DNA of 36,034 nucleotides from Candidatus Parcubacteria bacterium (lineage in GTDB: Bacteria; Patescibacteriota; Minisyncoccia; UBA6257; 2-01-FULL-56-20), in NCBI GenBank assembly GCA_027324805.1, contig DAHVRZ010000007.1:1-36034 (forward strand), read 5' to 3'. Positions 5,113 through 24,358 of this stretch are shown here, piece after piece. Position numbers and translations under genes: made by a program. Position 1 is the first letter of the stretch, and the number at the start of each line of letters is the position of its first letter. A model generated the notes under the pieces. The model saw only the letters and a list, made by a program, of their open reading frames with translations. It was not told the origin of the DNA and searched no databases.

Positions 5113-7173
5113 CTAGCGTGCCGAGGAAATATATGACCGCAGTTCGTTGATGTCCACGGCACGGATGAGGGACGCGCCTGGCGTAAGCGTCGGATCGGTG
5201 TACGTCGGAACGGATTGACCGCACGCCGCATATACGTCCGCGAGGGCGTTGCGGAGGTCCGTGATATGGATGGCACGGATCGGCGTCACTCCCGGAGTGA
5301 TCGTCGGGTCGGTGAAGGAATATGCCGAAAGTCCGGCATCACTCCTCAGAGTATTGATGTCGGTCCTCAGTTCGGTGATGTCGACCGCACGAATGATCGA
5401 CGTACCTGGCGTAAGCGTCGGATCGGCAAAGGTGAAGGTGAATGGACCCGTACAGGTCGTTGGCGGCACCGCCGACCAGACGTCATTGTAATACTGCGCA
5501 CTGCTTTGACCGTCCGTACCGCCCAACAACCATATCGCATTGTTGAATGAGGCGACGGACGTACCATACCTTCCCGCCCACGGGGCGCTCATTGCCGCCG
5601 CGGTCCAGGTGACGCCGTCGGTGGAATACCACGCATTATTGGTGGTTGAATCGATGACCCACATTTCATTGTCGTATATCAAAAATGATTCGTTGGCGTT
5701 CCTCGGGAAATGCGTGCTCGGCGCATAAGTCCCCGGCCACGGAGCGTTCGCGGTCGCCTCGGTCCAGGTGACGCCGTCCGATGACGACCAGACGTCGTTA
5801 TAATACGCCGACCCGGCGGCCTCTCCTCCCATGACCCATAACTCGTTATTAAACACGAAGATCGACGCTCCATCCCTTCCTGCCCACGGAGCATTCGCGG
5901 TCGCCTCGGTCCAGGTGACGCCGTCCGAGGACGACCAGACATCGTTTTCAGAACCAGAGCCAAAACCGCCCAACAGCCACATCTTGTTATTGAACACGAC
6001 CGCGCCGGCGCCACACCTCCCTCCCCACGGAACTGACGAATTCACAAGATTCCAGTTGGTGCCGTCCGAGGAAGACCAGACATCGGTATAACAGGAAGTG
6101 CTGGTACTGAGCGTTCCATATCCATCGCCTCCCATGATCCATAATTTATTGCCGTATGACAGGACGGAAGCATCCGCTCTCGACGGCCACGGACCTATCG
6201 TGGTCTCCTTGGTCCAGGTGACGCCGTCGGGGGAAATCCAGACATCGTTGTATTTATCCGATTCGGTCGAACCCATGACCACTATGTCGCCATTGAACGC
6301 AGTCGCGTATCCTTCGGTCTCATACGGTACATTCGAAGACGCCTTGGTCCAGGTGACGCCGTCCGAAGATGACCAGATATTATTGCCATTGTTATAATTC
6401 ATGATCCATAGCTTGCTGTTAAAGACGATCGCATCCCCTACGACTCCTGGAAGCGATGCCGTCACCTCGGTCCAGGTGACGCCGTCCGTCGATGACCAAA
6501 GATCACCGCTCGAAGAATCCATGACCCACATCTCGCCGTTATAAGAGAGAAAATAGTCGGTGTCGTAGCCCGCCATGTCGTAAGGACTATAAGCCGTGTG
6601 CGTCCACGGAGTGTTCGAATCCACCTCGGTCCAGGTGACGCCGTCCGATGACGACCAGACGGTATTACCACTCACGGAATCTATAATCCACAATTTATTG
6701 TTATATACGACGGGAACCACTCCGGACCCTGCCGGAAATGGAGCGTTCGCGGTCACCTCGGTCCAGGTGACGCCGTCCGATGACGACCAGACGTCGTTAT
6801 ATCCATAGCCGCCGATGATCCACAATTTATTATTAAAGACTACCGGGGTCACGCCCGCTCTCCCTTTCCATGGAGTGTTCGCGGTCACCTCGGTCCAGGT
6901 GACGCCGTCCGATGACGACCAGACGTCGTTATAGAGAGAAGTGCCGAGATAATCGGTTATGGGTTCTCCCCCATAGCCGCCAATGATCCATAATTTATTA
7001 TTGAACACCACAGGAGGTTCCATCCGCCACGGCAGCGTAGGTGAGATGGTCCAATTAAGGGCCGTGCCTGCCGCTTTTGCCGCCGGCTGCCGCGGAAATT
7101 GCATAATCCACGCCGCCGCGAGCACCACGGCGGTAAGAGCGATGATCGCAAAATAATACTTCTTACGGAGCAT
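5113..7173 (-). CDS. Secreted beta-propeller (kelch-like) surface protein with three C-terminal DPTLTPG...IRAVDITELR repeats
   Basis: ORF to 7209; start at MLRKKYYFAIIALTAVVLAAAWIM preferred because it places the signal/TM segment at the N-terminus. About ten VWSSSDGVTWTE blocks alternating with VFNNKLWIIGG blocks. Confidence 0.88.
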   Translation of the reverse strand: MLRKKYYFAIIALTAVVLAAAWIMQFPRQPAAKAAGTALNWTISPTLPWRMEPPVVFNNKLWIIGGYGGEPITDYLGTSLYNDVWSSSDGVTWTEVTANTPWKGRAGVTPVVFNNKLWIIGGYGYNDVWSSSDGVTWTEVTANAPFPAGSGVVPVVYNNKLWIIDSVSGNTVWSSSDGVTWTEVDSNTPWTHTAYSPYDMAGYDTDYFLSYNGEMWVMDSSSGDLWSSTDGVTWTEVTASLPGVVGDAIVFNSKLWIMNYNNGNNIWSSSDGVTWTKASSNVPYETEGYATAFNGDIVVMGSTESDKYNDVWISPDGVTWTKETTIGPWPSRADASVLSYGNKLWIMGGDGYGTLSTSTSCYTDVWSSSDGTNWNLVNSSVPWGGRCGAGAVVFNNKMWLLGGFGSGSENDVWSSSDGVTWTEATANAPWAGRDGASIFVFNNELWVMGGEAAGSAYYNDVWSSSDGVTWTEATANAPWPGTYAPSTHFPRNANESFLIYDNEMWVIDSTTNNAWYSTDGVTWTAAAMSAPWAGRYGTSVASFNNAIWLLGGTDGQSSAQYYNDVWSAVPPTTCTGPFTFTFADPTLTPGTSIIRAVDITELRTDINTLRSDAGLSAYSFTDPTITPGVTPIRAIHITDLRNALADVYAACGQSVPTYTDPTLTPGASLIRAVDINELRSYISSAR

Positions 7174-17523: not shown

Positions 17524-19716
17524 TTAATTCCCCCACAAATAATTATAGTCACTGATGTCCTGTGCCCCCAAAATGGTTTGTGAGGTTTGTGCATAATACA
17601 TAATATTCCCATAGACGCTATGATCTAGACCTAAAGCATGGCCCAACTCATGAGTTGCTGTATTTTGAATTTCATTTGAAGTGCTACTCGCAAGATAATA
17701 GGAATTAAAATCTATACCTCCTGGAGTGGTTCCGGATGCCGGATACCAAAGTGCCACAATATCCGTCCAAGGATAAGTAGAACTATCAACGTCATCTAAA
17801 ATTATGTTTGCAGTACTGGTGGAAGAAGTAGAGGCAATACTTATAGGACCTACAGCATTCCATGTATTAACTGCTGCATTCCATTGTGTAGAATATTGGG
17901 TTGAGCTTGCCCAAAGTATCTTTCCATTTTCCACCGAAGGCACCCATTGAAAATCTATATAGTGCGGCCCCATCGGCGAAGAACTCACAAAGGTTGGACT
18001 GCCATCCTGGGCGGATGTCGCATTACCACTCACTAATTCTGTAGAGGTGCCATTGAGCGGCCAGTAGGCAATCAATCCGGTACTGGTAGGTAAAATTTCC
18101 TCATTGGCGGTTGAGGTGATATCCGCCGCTGATCGCTGAATATCCCACAATCTCACCTCGGCCAGGTCACCGTTAAAGTAGTTCGTCGAAGATAGCGCGG
18201 ATCTTCCAAGCCACACCGAACTGGTAGTGGACGAATTGAAGCAATCGGTAGTGGTTTGTTCTTCGCCGTCAAACAGGAGCGAGAAAGGTGTCGAGATCGC
18301 AGACCCTTTTGTGATCGCAACCTGATGCCAATACCCCACCGCATCATCATTAGCCTCACGATCAGCAGCCTGAAGTTCAATCGACGAAGTTCCATTACAC
18401 GAAAGAGTTAGGTTGATTCCACTGCTATTTTTTGAAACCGTAAACCCTTCGCCGGTGCTCGTGCTTCGGTCATCAATGATCGTGCCTGCTGTCGATGTCG
18501 ATTTGTACCAAAACTCGATGGTAAATGGCCCCGTATCGGACAGCGCGGCGGTGGATACCGGCCACGCTAGCCCACTGCTTCCGTTGAAATACATACTCTC
18601 TTCGTTATTCGGAACGGCATTGATCGTAAAATCAACCGTGGAAGTTCCCGCAGGGCCGAACGATTGCCACGAAGAAGAACTCCCATCCGAAGCTACGGCC
18701 CTTGCTTGCCAATGATAATTACCGTTCGATGCAATATAGGGCGTAAATATGCCATCTCCATTAGAGACGAAGGAGCTGGCAACATTCGCCGTCCCAGTGA
18801 ATGGAAATCCCGTGGGTTTTATTTCCACTTGGAGTTGAACGGTATTTGACGTTGCCGTGCCAAGGGTGGCCCCAAATTCAACCGTGGTAGTGTCCACCAC
18901 GCCACCTTCGCTTATTGTAGTAGTTTGGTCTGGATAATACTGATTTAATGATGAAAAATAGGTGCCCAAATCACCGGTATAGAGACTGGAAATTTCTGTT
19001 GGCGTAAGTATGCGGGAAAAGAAGGCGAAATCATCCATATTGCCACTAAAGTAATGGTTTGTATCATTACTGTAGCCGTGCCAATCGCCGATCATGTTAT
19101 AGGTACCAGAGTAGGCACCCATAGTTCCGGAATATGATGCCACTTGGGTGCCATCCAGATAAACGGTCTGCGTTGAATTCCCATATGTGATAGCGAAGAA
19201 CTGCCATTGGCCGGCGGTGACGTTCCCTCCTTGAGCGCAACCGCTCAATCCCGCAAAACAAAAATAAAGTTCTCCCCCACTCCCAAGGCCGAATAAGAAT
19301 CCACTATTGTTCGATTCATTAATCGCTTCGACGATGCCCATTGTCGAAGATATGTTTTGTGGATCGATCCATCCGGTAATGGTAAAGGGACCTGCTGGCG
19401 GAGTCGTGGATAGCGTAATTACACTATTGCCACCATTGAGGTTTGCTCCTTGGCCGAATTTTCCATATTGCGTTCCATAGGAAACATTGGCACCGCTTCC
19501 ATTGTTATTTCCCATCGTATCACTCGCATTCCCTTCGAAGCGGTAATAGGAAACCAAATTCGCATCGTTATAAAGGGGTGTGTAATATAATTCTTCAGCA
19601 GCCGCATGCGCGGCGGAAGTCTTCAAAAAAACACCGCCCATTACAAAGGCGGCAGCTAAAAGCAATATTAGTGCATAACGCGATGACCATCTTCTCAAAC
19701 CAAGGGCATCGTTCAT
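17524..19716 (-). CDS. Secreted LamG-LamG-matrixin (M10-like) zinc metalloprotease
   Basis: Start MNDALGLRRWSSRYALILLLAAAFVMGG preferred over 19833. Two LamG-like domains; C-terminal HELGHALGLDHSVYGNIMYY = HExxHxxGxxH plus Met-turn-like motif. Confidence 0.85.
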   Translation of the reverse strand: MNDALGLRRWSSRYALILLLAAAFVMGGVFLKTSAAHAAAEELYYTPLYNDANLVSYYRFEGNASDTMGNNNGSGANVSYGTQYGKFGQGANLNGGNSVITLSTTPPAGPFTITGWIDPQNISSTMGIVEAINESNNSGFLFGLGSGGELYFCFAGLSGCAQGGNVTAGQWQFFAITYGNSTQTVYLDGTQVASYSGTMGAYSGTYNMIGDWHGYSNDTNHYFSGNMDDFAFFSRILTPTEISSLYTGDLGTYFSSLNQYYPDQTTTISEGGVVDTTTVEFGATLGTATSNTVQLQVEIKPTGFPFTGTANVASSFVSNGDGIFTPYIASNGNYHWQARAVASDGSSSSWQSFGPAGTSTVDFTINAVPNNEESMYFNGSSGLAWPVSTAALSDTGPFTIEFWYKSTSTAGTIIDDRSTSTGEGFTVSKNSSGINLTLSCNGTSSIELQAADREANDDAVGYWHQVAITKGSAISTPFSLLFDGEEQTTTDCFNSSTTSSVWLGRSALSSTNYFNGDLAEVRLWDIQRSAADITSTANEEILPTSTGLIAYWPLNGTSTELVSGNATSAQDGSPTFVSSSPMGPHYIDFQWVPSVENGKILWASSTQYSTQWNAAVNTWNAVGPISIASTSSTSTANIILDDVDSSTYPWTDIVALWYPASGTTPGGIDFNSYYLASSTSNEIQNTATHELGHALGLDHSVYGNIMYYAQTSQTILGAQDISDYNYLWGN

Positions 19717-19782
19717 GGTAACTTGGCTCGATTCAATTATAGCATACGTGCGATTTGCATTAATGCCACTATCACATCCATG

Positions 19783-20110
19783 CAAACCCCCAAATAAGTC
19801 TTTGTAAAAAACCACAATAAACGCTATACCCATACGACAGAGAAAGTTATGCCACCTTGTTCAGGTGGCATAACCCGGTACAATGCGAGAAGAACCTTCC
19901 CATTCTTCTATGCAATATGTAACATGTCGTCGCTCTCGATTGCTTTCGAGACCTCTCTCAGCAGCGGTTCCCAAGTTCGAGGTACGTCCTGATGTGGGCT
20001 ACGGATAGGCCGCCTTCAAAACACCAGTATTTATGCGGCTTTCTCAATCGCGAATATGATGACCCTTGCGGGGAATCGAACGTTCGGGATTTTCCGTATG
20101 CCCCACGGGA
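19783..20110. repeat. ~330-bp diverged direct repeat, copy A
   Basis: Shares with copy B: aagtctttgtaaa-type motif, the same hairpin, ccggtacaatgcgagaagaac, ccaagttcgaggtacgtcc-gatgtgggctac, taggccgccttcaaaacac-tatttatgcggct, gattttccgtatgccccac. Confidence 0.88.
19846..19874 (-). terminator. Hairpin/terminator within repeat copy A
   Basis: gttatgccacc-ttgttca-ggtggcataac; followed on the minus strand by TTTCT. Confidence 0.6.
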
Positions 20111-20131
20111 ATCGTTCCCGGGAAGCGGTGG

Positions 20132-20341
20132 CTATCTGAAGTCCTTATGGAAGGGCATCATCCGAAGCGGCAGGGCATCTCCCTTGCCGTCGTCCCCTTC
20201 GTATTTTTCCATCAAGCCACACAGGCTATCAAAGAGACTGAGCATGCGGAGCGCTTCCGGGTATGGGAGCACCACGCCGTACTCCTCCGCGTAGTCATCG
20301 ATGAAGTCCTGCACCACTTCCTCTGGGTAACCGTATCCCAT
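20132..20341 (-). CDS. Small hypothetical acidic protein
   Basis: 69 aa: MGYGYPEEVVQDFIDDYAEEYGVVLPYPEALRMLSLFDSLCGLMEKYEGDD; protein-like composition. Confidence 0.5.
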   Translation of the reverse strand: MGYGYPEEVVQDFIDDYAEEYGVVLPYPEALRMLSLFDSLCGLMEKYEGDDGKGDALPLRMMPFHKDFR

Positions 20342-20525: not shown

Positions 20526-20870
20526 CTATAAACGAAACAGCGACATAAGGATTTGAAAGAGACCAACAAGCACTAAAGCTCCCGTCAGCCACATCATGGC
20601 TTTAGCATGCTTCTCATTGCTACGCGCAAGCCTTTCATTCGATTCAATGAGTAACTGAAAGGCTCGATCAAGAACGACCCTGTCCTGCATAGACGATTGC
20701 TCCATCTGGAGCGAGGCAATCTGTAATGATTCAGCAATATCCAACGAGGCTGAGGCGGTCGCAATACCAACATGGTGCGCAGATTGAGCACCAACGCCAA
20801 ACCTAGACGCCTTGAGATTCTCAATTGCTTCAACCACCTCTTCATTTCTATGTTTGTTTGTTAACTCCAT
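20526..20870 (-). CDS. Coiled-coil protein with C-terminal TM helix
   Basis: 114 aa; LLIESNERLARSNEKHAKAMMWLTGALVLVGLFQILMSLF; 23 bp downstream of the HATPase-STAS gene. Confidence 0.72.
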   Translation of the reverse strand: MELTNKHRNEEVVEAIENLKASRFGVGAQSAHHVGIATASASLDIAESLQIASLQMEQSSMQDRVVLDRAFQLLIESNERLARSNEKHAKAMMWLTGALVLVGLFQILMSLFRL

Positions 20871-20893
20871 TGCTCTAGAGTGGTCTGTTGCTC

Positions 20894-21916
20894 TTAACTC
20901 GGCTGGTTGGCCAACCCGCGCTTAATCATTGCTTCGACTTCTTCGTTTGCATTCACATATCGAATCATGATGTCCGGATGCTCGCCTTGAAAAACGCGAA
21001 ACACCTCGTCCACAAAAGCCTGGCCCACCGAGTTCACGCTACGGAAATCAAGCACTACCTGCCTGAATTTCTCAAGACCCATAAGGAGTCGCTTCGCCTG
21101 TGATCGCGATACGTGAGGATCATTCGGGTCTGAACTCAAGGCAACCGCCACAATAGTCTTGCCAAACCCTATTTCCTGATCCGAGTATTGATCCATCACC
21201 TCTTTCGGGGTGCGAGTGGCATTCAGCGACAGCACCATATCGATGCATGTGCCCTTGCCAAACGACTCCCTCTTTTCAGGGGATAGGAACCATTCCTCAC
21301 CCTGGAACGTGTAGAACAAGTCGTCTGAAAGAATCGAGAACTTATCGAAGATGCGCGAGGTGAAGAAAATACCCTCCCCCGTGTGCTTTGTGGGATCGGT
21401 GGTGAATTTGCCCTTCGAAAGATGGAGGATGGCTTCTCTCATGAAGTCCAAATGAAGAGCATCTTGAATCTTATGGAAAATGCCGACGCCATTATCCATA
21501 ATCATCAACTCAAGCTCATCCTCCCGGATATCAAGCGTCACAAAGAGTACTGTCCCCTCTGAATGGTCGATAACATTGTTTACCATTTCAGTGAAACCAT
21601 ACGCGCATATCCCCTGAATGTTCTCCGGGAAGCGTCGGAGTAATGGTCTGATGTATTGTGACCAGACACGATCTTCTGCAAGTGTTGCCGTGATTGGAAG
21701 AGCGAAGTCGATATGGTTTCCCGAAGCGCTGAAATAACGGGTCCACCGAGTCCGGCCAACTTGAATGATGGTTCCCGCCGCCGCCTCGCGCGCAATGTAT
21801 TCATGCGCGCGCTGACGGGAGAATCCAAAGCGATCAGCAACGACCGACACTATATCGGATGGATGGTCCGCAATATTCTCAAAGATGAAGTCGCGGACGG
21901 CGGGTGTATCTTGCAT
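20894..21916 (-). CDS. HTH - HATPase_c - STAS-like (DUF4325-type) regulatory protein
   Basis: 340 aa; VADRFGFSRQRAHEYIAREAAAGTI (HTH), YGFTEMVNNVIDHSEGTV (N box), MIMDNGVGIF (G1), HTGEGIFFTSRIFDKFSI (G2), RQVVLDFRSVNSVGQAFVDEVFRVF (STAS-like). Confidence 0.85.
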   Translation of the reverse strand: MQDTPAVRDFIFENIADHPSDIVSVVADRFGFSRQRAHEYIAREAAAGTIIQVGRTRWTRYFSASGNHIDFALPITATLAEDRVWSQYIRPLLRRFPENIQGICAYGFTEMVNNVIDHSEGTVLFVTLDIREDELELMIMDNGVGIFHKIQDALHLDFMREAILHLSKGKFTTDPTKHTGEGIFFTSRIFDKFSILSDDLFYTFQGEEWFLSPEKRESFGKGTCIDMVLSLNATRTPKEVMDQYSDQEIGFGKTIVAVALSSDPNDPHVSRSQAKRLLMGLEKFRQVVLDFRSVNSVGQAFVDEVFRVFQGEHPDIMIRYVNANEEVEAMIKRGLANQPS

Positions 21917-21955: not shown

Positions 21956-21966
21956 ACGGCCTTATA

Positions 21967-22335
21967 AGTCTTTGTAAACCCCTAAATACTTCTTTGTAAA
22001 CCCTGCGGTAGAATCTATACCGTAAAGAAGGTTATGCCACCTTGTTCAGGTGGCATAACCCGGTACAATGCGAGAAGAACATTGTAGTTCCTCTACGCAA
22101 AGCGCAACGTTGCGTCGTTCTCGATTGCTTTTGAAATCTCTTTCAACAGTGCGTCCCAAGTTCGAGGTACGTCCCGATGTGGGCTACACAATACCGTTCC
22201 AAACCTGCCCCTCGAGGGCTACGCGTAGGCCGCCTTCAAAACACGAATATTTATGCGGCTCCCTCAATCTCGAATGTGATGATCCTTGCAGGGAATCGAA
22301 CTTTCGAGATTTTCCGTATGCCCCACAGGAAAGGA
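21967..22335. repeat. ~330-bp diverged direct repeat, copy B
   Basis: See copy A; same orientation. Confidence 0.88.
22031..22059 (-). terminator. Hairpin/terminator within repeat copy B
   Basis: gttatgccacc-ttgttca-ggtggcataac, then TTCTTT on the minus strand. Confidence 0.6.
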
Positions 22336-23119: not shown

Positions 23120-24358
23120 CTACTTCTCTATATTATAGATCTGCTGGACCTCGGCACCGGAGAGTGCGCGGTCATAGATACGGACGTCCTGTATATTCCC
23201 GTTCCAATAATGATTGCATGAGCCGCCGGACGAAAGGTTCCCGATGGTTATCACGGACGCCCCGCTGTTCGAATTGTAGCCTGCGCTCACGGCCGCGGAA
23301 TTGACCTGGACGCCGTCGAGATAGATCGCGACGCTCGTACCGTTCCGCACTCCGACCAGATAATGCCAGTTGCCGTCATTGATGGTCCCGGGCGAGGTAA
23401 GGTATCCCGCGGAACCGGTGCCGAACGTGGAGAACGATGCTTTGTTATTATACGTTTCGAGAACCCATGATTCCGCAATGCCGCATCGGTTGGCGGACAC
23501 TGCCGCCGCTTCGCTGAGGGCCGCGGAGGTTTTGACCCACGCCCCCACGGAGAAACTGCCGGTACCGAACTGGAACTGCGACGTGTTCGGAATGGAAACG
23601 ATATCGTCACTCCCGTCGAAATTGCCCGCGTAGCTCTGGTTATATCCTGACGCATAGTATGGCGTCGTTCCACTCCATGTTCCCGTACTGTTATATCCCG
23701 ACCAGTCGATCGTCGAGGGTCCGCTCCCCTCGTTGAGCGGCCAGTATCCCACAAGCGCCCTGCCGGACACGGGGAGGCTTGAAAGGCCGCTGCCCACTTC
23801 GTAAAGGGTGGGGTCGACACCCCCGGAAGACCGTACCTGTCCCGCATACTTGTTGGATTCCATGAACGCCGTTATGACATATTTCGAACCGTCGGTGTTA
23901 TAGGTGTAATAGAGATTCGAGGAGGTCTGGTTGACCGGATCCCCCGAGAGCGCATTGAACGGGCTCCCGCCGCGGATGTTCTGGAAATTGATGGGGATCC
24001 ATCCCGCACCGGCGGTCGTCTTGAAATTCGTCACGCCGCTGCACGTATATGCATATGCGGATGTCGCAAGTCCGAGATCGCTGCAGTTCGTGTTTGCGGC
24101 CGGGACGGAAATATAGTTCATCGTCGTCGTGCCGATCGAATACCCCGGCATCAGTCCCTGGTCGGATTGATAGAGGGTGACGGCGGCATCGAGGGTGGCG
24201 AGATCGCTCACCCGCCGTGCGTCGCGCGACTGCTGAACAAGCTGGATGGGGTTCAGCGTCAGGATCACCATAAGGGCGAGGAGCGATATGATCCCGAGCA
24301 CCACGACCATCTCGAGCAACGAGAATCCGGAACGGCGCGTGCGCATTATTTGATGCAT
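23120..24358 (-). CDS. Prepilin-like N-terminus fused to LamG domain (paralogue of 577-1839)
   Basis: RRSGFSLLEMVVVLGIISLLALMVILTLNPIQLVQQSRDARRVSDLATLDAAVTLY; LamG part GYWPLNEGSGPSTIDWSGYNSTGTW...DVRIYDRALSGAEVQQIYNIEK. Confidence 0.92.
   Translation of the reverse strand: MHQIMRTRRSGFSLLEMVVVLGIISLLALMVILTLNPIQLVQQSRDARRVSDLATLDAAVTLYQSDQGLMPGYSIGTTTMNYISVPAANTNCSDLGLATSAYAYTCSGVTNFKTTAGAGWIPINFQNIRGGSPFNALSGDPVNQTSSNLYYTYNTDGSKYVITAFMESNKYAGQVRSSGGVDPTLYEVGSGLSSLPVSGRALVGYWPLNEGSGPSTIDWSGYNSTGTWSGTTPYYASGYNQSYAGNFDGSDDIVSIPNTSQFQFGTGSFSVGAWVKTSAALSEAAAVSANRCGIAESWVLETYNNKASFSTFGTGSAGYLTSPGTINDGNWHYLVGVRNGTSVAIYLDGVQVNSAAVSAGYNSNSGASVITIGNLSSGGSCNHYWNGNIQDVRIYDRALSGAEVQQIYNIEK

Follow-up and report, generated by a model that had tools for sequence, protein, structure and literature searches.

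A candidate self-operator of phased tandem repeats upstream of a bacterial HTH-GHKL-STAS-like fusion gene

Background

GHKL kinases and STAS domains work as partners in several described bacterial systems. In SpoIIAB-SpoIIAA and RsbW-RsbV the two are separate proteins, and the circuit includes a phosphorylatable serine, a PP2C phosphatase and a sigma-factor target. In CapK/CapS (PMC13373217), where helix-turn-helix (HTH), STAS and GHKL domains are used together with repression of the system's own promoter, two genes encode an HTH-STAS-GHKL protein and a STAS-wHTH protein: a conserved serine on the second STAS helix of CapS is phosphorylated by CapK, CapS oligomerises on DNA, the sites are palindromic, and the genes lie beside immune operons. 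VapKSC (PMC13373217) also has a GHKL kinase and STAS pair, in a set of three genes that includes a VapC-like nuclease. A winged HTH that oligomerises on DNA is further reported for RdfS (PMC11963761), an ICE excision factor for which no GHKL or STAS-like domains are known.

The Pfam family DUF4325 (PF14213, 'STAS-like') occurs together with HATPase_c and HTH domains in proteins for which the literature searched describes neither a function nor an operator. Literature searches for the architecture and for the repeat motif reported below returned nothing relevant except CapK/CapS and RdfS.

We analysed a stretch of 36,034 nucleotides, hereafter the window, which is one contig of the 0.88-Mb genome (60 contigs in total) of a Candidatus Parcubacteria bacterium and encodes a member of this DUF4325 family. 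As in SpoIIAB-SpoIIAA and RsbW-RsbV, a GHKL fold meets a STAS-like partner domain, here on the same chain; the fold is nearest to SpoIIAB and has the N, G1 and G2 boxes. Unlike VapKSC, the locus has no VapC-like nuclease. The comparison with CapK/CapS is the closest, since the same domain types recur and repression of the own promoter is probable here as well. However, the fusion is a single gene in the order HTH-GHKL-STAS, it carries alanine at the acceptor position (serine in 5 of 68 fused proteins), it is preceded by tandem direct repeats instead of palindromes, and no immune operon is adjacent. The best reading is of an autoregulated protein that binds both ATP and DNA, related to CapK/CapS but wired differently.

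Architecture and distribution of the fusion

The fusion gene (20894..21916, minus strand) encodes 340 residues from an ATG start. Pfam detects HATPase_c (PF02518) at residues 108-230 (E 2.9e-7) and DUF4325 at residues 273-327 (E 2e-14), both above the cut-off. No Pfam HTH match is obtained with the window protein as sole query; N-terminal MarR_2, HTH_24 or HTH_11 matches are found in up to 39 of 68 fusion homologues. In the alignment of these homologues, from which L087 was left out for a stop codon, all 68 members match PF14213 and PF13581, and 67 match PF02518. The AlphaFold2 model obtained with this alignment (pLDDT 88.8, pTM 0.78) comprises a winged HTH at residues 5-63, a GHKL domain at about 81-230 and a beta-alpha STAS-like fold at 255-336. 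Foldseek returns SpoIIAB as the top match (E 1.3e-5, TM-score 0.72 by target length) and also RsbW, and the catalytic boxes are conserved in the family: N box E110/N113/N114, G1 D141-x-G143-x-G145 and G2 G180-x-G182. On the minus strand, the winged HTH domain (residues about 1-66, recognition helix from S33-R34-Q35) corresponds to 21719..21916, the GHKL ATPase/kinase domain to 21227..21676 and the STAS-like domain (residues about 255-336) to 20909..21154.

HTH, HATPase_c and DUF4325 thus lie in one chain, in that order. This is the architecture read from the sequence in the initial annotation, which had remarked that kinase-like and STAS-like parts are unusually combined in a single protein and had proposed AlphaFold modelling as a check: both the GHKL and the STAS-like fold are present in the model. 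Its caution about function was also right.

This architecture is common and cross-phylum, not a local oddity. A scan of the contig collection identified at least 554 related stretches in many phyla, and within the window's own phylum the fusion is present in 25 of 380 genomes. The best-scoring 80 of the at least 554 loci were fetched for comparison, and the phylum set contributed 25 separately drawn genomes. Nine Patescibacteria-type proteins among these best 80 of at least 554 share 60-67% identity with the window protein; the remaining loci of the 80, at 40-48% identity, come from Chloroflexota, Pseudomonadota, Nitrospinota, Planctomycetota and others. The family tree has two deep clades. 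One of them is otherwise made up of bacteria from other phyla and includes, as a fully supported group, the window protein with its nine close relatives; the copy of a same-genus genome (G001) falls in the other. Both placements would fit a horizontal acquisition of the window gene.

A phased tandem repeat precedes the fusion gene

The most informative feature of the locus is a putative tandem operator, which the initial annotation had not noticed. GGTTTACAAAGANNTAT occurs twice at a distance of exactly 22 bp, in the region 48-86 bp ahead of the start codon of the window gene. Repeat 1 (GGTTTACAAAGAAGTAT, 21986..22002, minus strand) is followed by repeat 2 (GGTTTACAAAGACTTAT, 21964..21980, minus strand), and the pair has the top tandem score in the genome. 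A third, degenerate position follows 22 bp further. In each of the nine close relatives the window word occurs two or three times at the same period (10 of 10 members of the window clade with repeats).

Comparison across phyla indicates that a helically phased tandem GTTKACAAT directly upstream of the fusion gene is a feature of the family, and it is new here. Tandem GTTKACAA at 21-23 bp precedes 75 of 109 fusion genes versus 1 of 575 other genes in the same loci, and 87 of the 109 have pairs at any helical phase; about 20% of fusion loci have no GTTKACAA array. Since the word was first found by inspection, we ran a motif-free spacing test together with a control on other genes. Repeats spaced by 21, 22, 43 or 44 bp occur in 92 of 109 fusion upstream regions, the window's among them, versus 49 of 407 control windows; the same test on the upstream regions of other genes gives 68 of 575. 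Among the 109 upstream regions, direct repeats of any sequence occur in 53 loci at 21 bp (8 expected), in 66 at 22 bp (2.7 expected) and in 43 at 43 bp (1.0 expected), counts that are not independent, as the loci are related. No 22-bp-spaced pair was found elsewhere in the 1.97 Mb of fusion loci. Start codons were taken from the open reading frames and are set too far upstream in a few loci (L026, L028), which slightly lowers the array counts.

Spacing varies with the clade, from 22+22 bp in the window's and 21+22 bp in most others to an arrangement of often 11/21/11 in the Patescibacteria-type clade. Each of these distances approximates a multiple of 10.5 bp, which is what sites on double-stranded DNA should show. 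Since the array words are similar to a -35 box (TTGACA), promoter elements could contribute to the signal.

The repeated word varies with the recognition helix. A GTTKACAA array is found for 77 of 84 proteins with Gln35 (an S/T-R-Q recognition helix) and for 10 of 25 without it, an association whose Fisher value of 2.6e-7 is not a true probability because the sequences are related. A Nitrospinota/FCPU426 group of eight loci (L035, L036, L047, L049, L071, L073, L038 and L050), with RTT or PTT in the recognition helix, is devoid of GTTKACAA and has phased GTTATAA in seven of the eight, a pairing that has the appearance of a natural specificity switch. The simplest reading of this covariation, which largely rests on one clade, is that the fusion protein itself binds the array.

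Other leaders carry other words. Four Patescibacteria loci (L143, L144, L145, L150) are without GTTKACAA arrays and have repeated CTAACATAGA or TGACATA-like words. The separate-gene GHKL and DUF4325 loci L113, L115, L116 and L117, whose HTH is MerR-like, have yet another word upstream of the GHKL gene, in direct repeats phased at 20-21 bp; this suggests that operators of their own are more widespread among GHKL-STAS regulators.

The phosphoacceptor serine is replaced in most fused proteins

In the window protein, Ala300 (21017-21019) occupies the phosphoacceptor position, at the N-terminal end of the second STAS-like helix of the AlphaFold2 model and following Gly and Gln at 298-299. This column holds Ala in 54, Gly in 8, Ser in 5 and Pro in 1 of the 68 fused proteins; the equivalence of position 300 to SpoIIAA S58 and CapS S54 comes from profile alignment and from its location where the second helix starts, not from superposed structures. 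The separate-gene DUF4325 proteins of Patescibacteria, nearly always found beside a GHKL gene, have an invariant serine in this column (10 of 10 aligned members). In the PDB their profile matches VapS best (E 0.033) and CapS at rank 4, both weakly: the CapS match aligns the separate-gene serine with the second serine of the CapS 'DSS', and the stronger VapS match is offset by one residue. These alignments suggest that the fused family lacks the phosphorylation switch of its known relatives.

Searches of the window's own genome (96.5% complete) for a SpoIIE/RsbU-type phosphatase (PF07228, at E <= 0.1) and for a PF01740 STAS protein yielded none; both searches do give matches in control genomes. 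With no acceptor serine in the STAS-like domain, and neither of these components in the genome, the classical partner-switching frame in which the locus had initially been placed is not supported.

The first STAS-like helix has a conserved feature of its own. Ser270, Arg271, Ser272, Ala274 and Arg276 (window residues 270-276, SRSQAKR) are invariant in the 68 fused proteins, and the segment is possibly a functional site distinct from the SpoIIAA acceptor serine.

Neighbouring genes do not recur

The initial annotation had described the fusion as part of a defence-like module with a transmembrane (TM) partner, a 114-aa protein starting 23 bp downstream, followed by a 69-aa open reading frame. 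Both reading frames are there. The first (20526..20870, minus strand) has codon statistics that are compatible with coding, though not decisive, and is predicted to be all-helical with a single C-terminal TM helix, as annotated; the second (20132..20341, minus strand), which is acidic, has relatives in 0 of 101 genomes.

The partnership itself finds no support. Relatives of the 114-aa protein are absent beside the fusion at the best 80 of at least 554 loci and in the phylum set, and from the phages and plasmids searched. Among the 380 genomes only two have a relative, G560 (39% identity over 79 residues) and G524; both copies adjoin unrelated genes, and both genomes are without the fusion. The initial annotation had stated that its idea would fail if the TM partner never co-occurred elsewhere; this is essentially the outcome here, and a role as dedicated TM effector was rejected. 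The 114-aa reading frame is probably a coding neighbour, not a conserved partner, and is probably co-transcribed, and hence co-controlled, with the fusion.

More generally, the best 80 of at least 554 loci and the phylum set show no recurring neighbour family or conserved partner of the fusion, and the flanks vary; the largest near-gene cluster, a thermonuclease, mostly reflects shared Nitrospinota gene order. The window protein matches no PADLOC model. A few homologues have weak PADLOC matches to CARF, Csa3 and SoFic (best E 2.5e-5), which probably arise through the HTH. No relative of the window protein was found in 50,697 phage, 72,556 plasmid and 2.9 million viral records, and a Paraburkholderia member used as query gave no plasmid relatives either. 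A defence island was rejected on the PADLOC result for the window protein, the weakness of the homologue matches and the want of a recurring defence neighbour. With unrelated neighbourhoods, no shared partner and no tie to defence systems, phages or plasmids, neither 'module' nor 'defence' is a supported description.

A proposed mechanism and its alternatives

We consider it likely that the fusion is an autoregulated DNA-binding core, whose winged HTH would bind its own array and exert feedback on its own gene and perhaps on a few other promoters. The same phased repeats stand before the fusion's own gene in many phyla, which makes self-control the most likely function, not a phage-defence module with the neighbour. 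First, the winged HTH would bind the direct repeats, which recur as GTTTACAA(A/T) with a 22-bp period shortly before the start codon; the comparative evidence for this step is strong. Direct rather than inverted, and all on one helical face, the repeats would probably be occupied by several protomers side by side, in head-to-tail order. Inverted repeats are the usual target of symmetric dimers, and a chain of two different interfaces binds direct repeats; with both halves of a heterotypic interface on one chain, the fusion would be expected to bind the latter. The head-to-tail contact would most simply be the GHKL-STAS interface known from SpoIIAB-SpoIIAA and CapK-CapS, the STAS-like domain of one protomer resting on the GHKL domain of the next. 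Because the fused family has Ala or Gly in place of the acceptor serine, phosphorylation would not operate this interface. Assembly, and with it repression, would depend on nucleotide state (ATP, ADP or hydrolysis). The outcome would be negative feedback on the fusion gene and on any small set of other promoters reached, and we infer that the fusion is an autorepressor.

Head-to-tail binding, the GHKL-STAS interface and nucleotide control, taken alone, are tentative, and we would put them at rather less than even chances; independent monomers that make no contact with one another could also occupy the direct repeats. More doubtful again is the broader picture of a cross-phylum, one-protein form of GHKL-STAS signalling, whose kinase-substrate interface would have become a fixed head-to-tail contact gated by nucleotide and would yield a self-limiting DNA filament regulator that senses ATP state, its protomers assembling in register on the helically phased repeats at their own promoter.

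Three other readings were weighed against an autoregulated DNA-binding core. The 22-bp period is a typical iteron length and winged HTH domains occur in Rep proteins too, and TTGACA is the sigma-70 -35 box, so that the repeats might be a replication-type iteron array, or stacked promoter elements, read by another factor. We find this quite improbable: the arrays precede the fusion gene and only 1 of 575 other genes, the last copy is often merely 7-23 nt from the start codon and so too close for a -35 box, the word shifts with the HTH helix, and plasmid copies were not found. Least probable of all, and to our mind hardly credible, is a defence or toxin module with the fusion as sensor of a phage cue and the 114-aa coiled-coil TM protein as membrane effector. 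Its appeal lies in a helical TM protein encoded on the same strand after a 23-bp gap, yet that partner is absent at every other fusion locus examined and has relatives without the fusion, defence neighbours do not recur, the fusion's relatives have no phage, plasmid or viral record, and PADLOC offers nothing for the window protein beyond the homologues' weak, probably HTH-driven matches.

The most serious rival, though still unlikely, is a DNA-damage switch like CapK/CapS, where the GHKL domain would phosphorylate a STAS domain, its own or in trans, on a signal such as single-stranded DNA and thereby derepress a stress or immune operon. Ala300 in the fusion's own STAS-like domain weighs against this, as do a domain order different from the HTH-STAS-GHKL of CapK, a genome without PF01740 STAS and surroundings in which neither a CapS-like gene nor an immune operon is adjacent; no STAS-wHTH repressor gene adjoins the fusion in the window or at homologous loci. 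Its attraction comes from the published biology of CapK/CapS (PMC13373217), the identical set of three domain types, the intact GHKL boxes, and the separate-gene GHKL and DUF4325 pairs of related genomes, which retain the acceptor serine and whose profile leads, if weakly, to VapS and then, at rank 4, to CapS.

For a large cross-phylum DUF4325 fusion family, the conserved candidate operator offers a first concrete and testable activity, binding to the own array. Loss of the acceptor in fused forms and its retention in separate-gene forms provide a natural comparison for the way in which a kinase-substrate pair can become a non-phosphorylating regulator. The findings are also relevant to CapK/CapS and VapKSC, in which immunity is under the control of the same domains.

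Candidate targets in the genome and a probable duplicated leader

A matrix built from the window's clade was used to scan stretches that together span the 60 contigs of the own genome. The fusion array has a tandem score of 43.0 and the next sites 17.4, 17.1 and 16.6; a second strong array was not found in the 60 contigs, and the best single sites lie in or beside ordinary genes with no pattern. The autoregulated core may therefore act mainly on itself or on single sites, or through a further output of its GHKL domain. The site scoring 17.1, degenerate and tandem (19778..19813, minus strand), lies upstream of a LamG/metallopeptidase gene and could be a decayed operator; falling within the genome background (17.4, 16.6), it is only suggestive.

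Beside this site lies the first of two large direct repeats, which the initial annotation took as the borders of a mobile cassette. BLAST confirms the repeats. Copy 1 (19832..20115, plus strand) forms the leader of the LamG gene and copy 2 (22017..22331, plus strand) lies upstream of the fusion's operator; they measure about 284 and 315 bp, are 76% identical over the full BLAST alignment and are the sole two copies in the genome. Each has a strong hairpin (GGTTATGCCACC...GGTGGCATAACC or close to it), and a 34-bp core around AGTTCGAGGTACGTCCCGATNNGGGCT is also found next to hairpins in two other family genomes (L010, L011). The cassette fares less well: no integrase or transposase was seen in the unit, and no empty site was found for comparison with the repeat-flanked region. 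Integron or tRNA-type attachment sites were rejected as well, given two copies in the genome and no tRNA, Rfam match or recombinase. As the similarity extends into the operator region and a weak site accompanies copy 1, duplication of a leader accounts for the repeats better than cassette ends do, and a duplicated leader region is what they probably represent.

The unit is flanked on one side by the LamG protein (17524-19716, minus strand), which has a metzincin-like HExxH domain (Peptidase_M10/M43/M57 matches), and on the other by a LamG-bearing pseudopilin-like protein (23120-24358, minus strand); both are likely cell-surface proteins. Elsewhere in the window, positions 5137-6930 contain long runs of imperfect repeats in which a 47-nt unit occurs 10 times at intervals of about 123-162 nt; the repeats read VWSSDGVTWT-like on the minus strand and probably belong to a large repeat surface protein.
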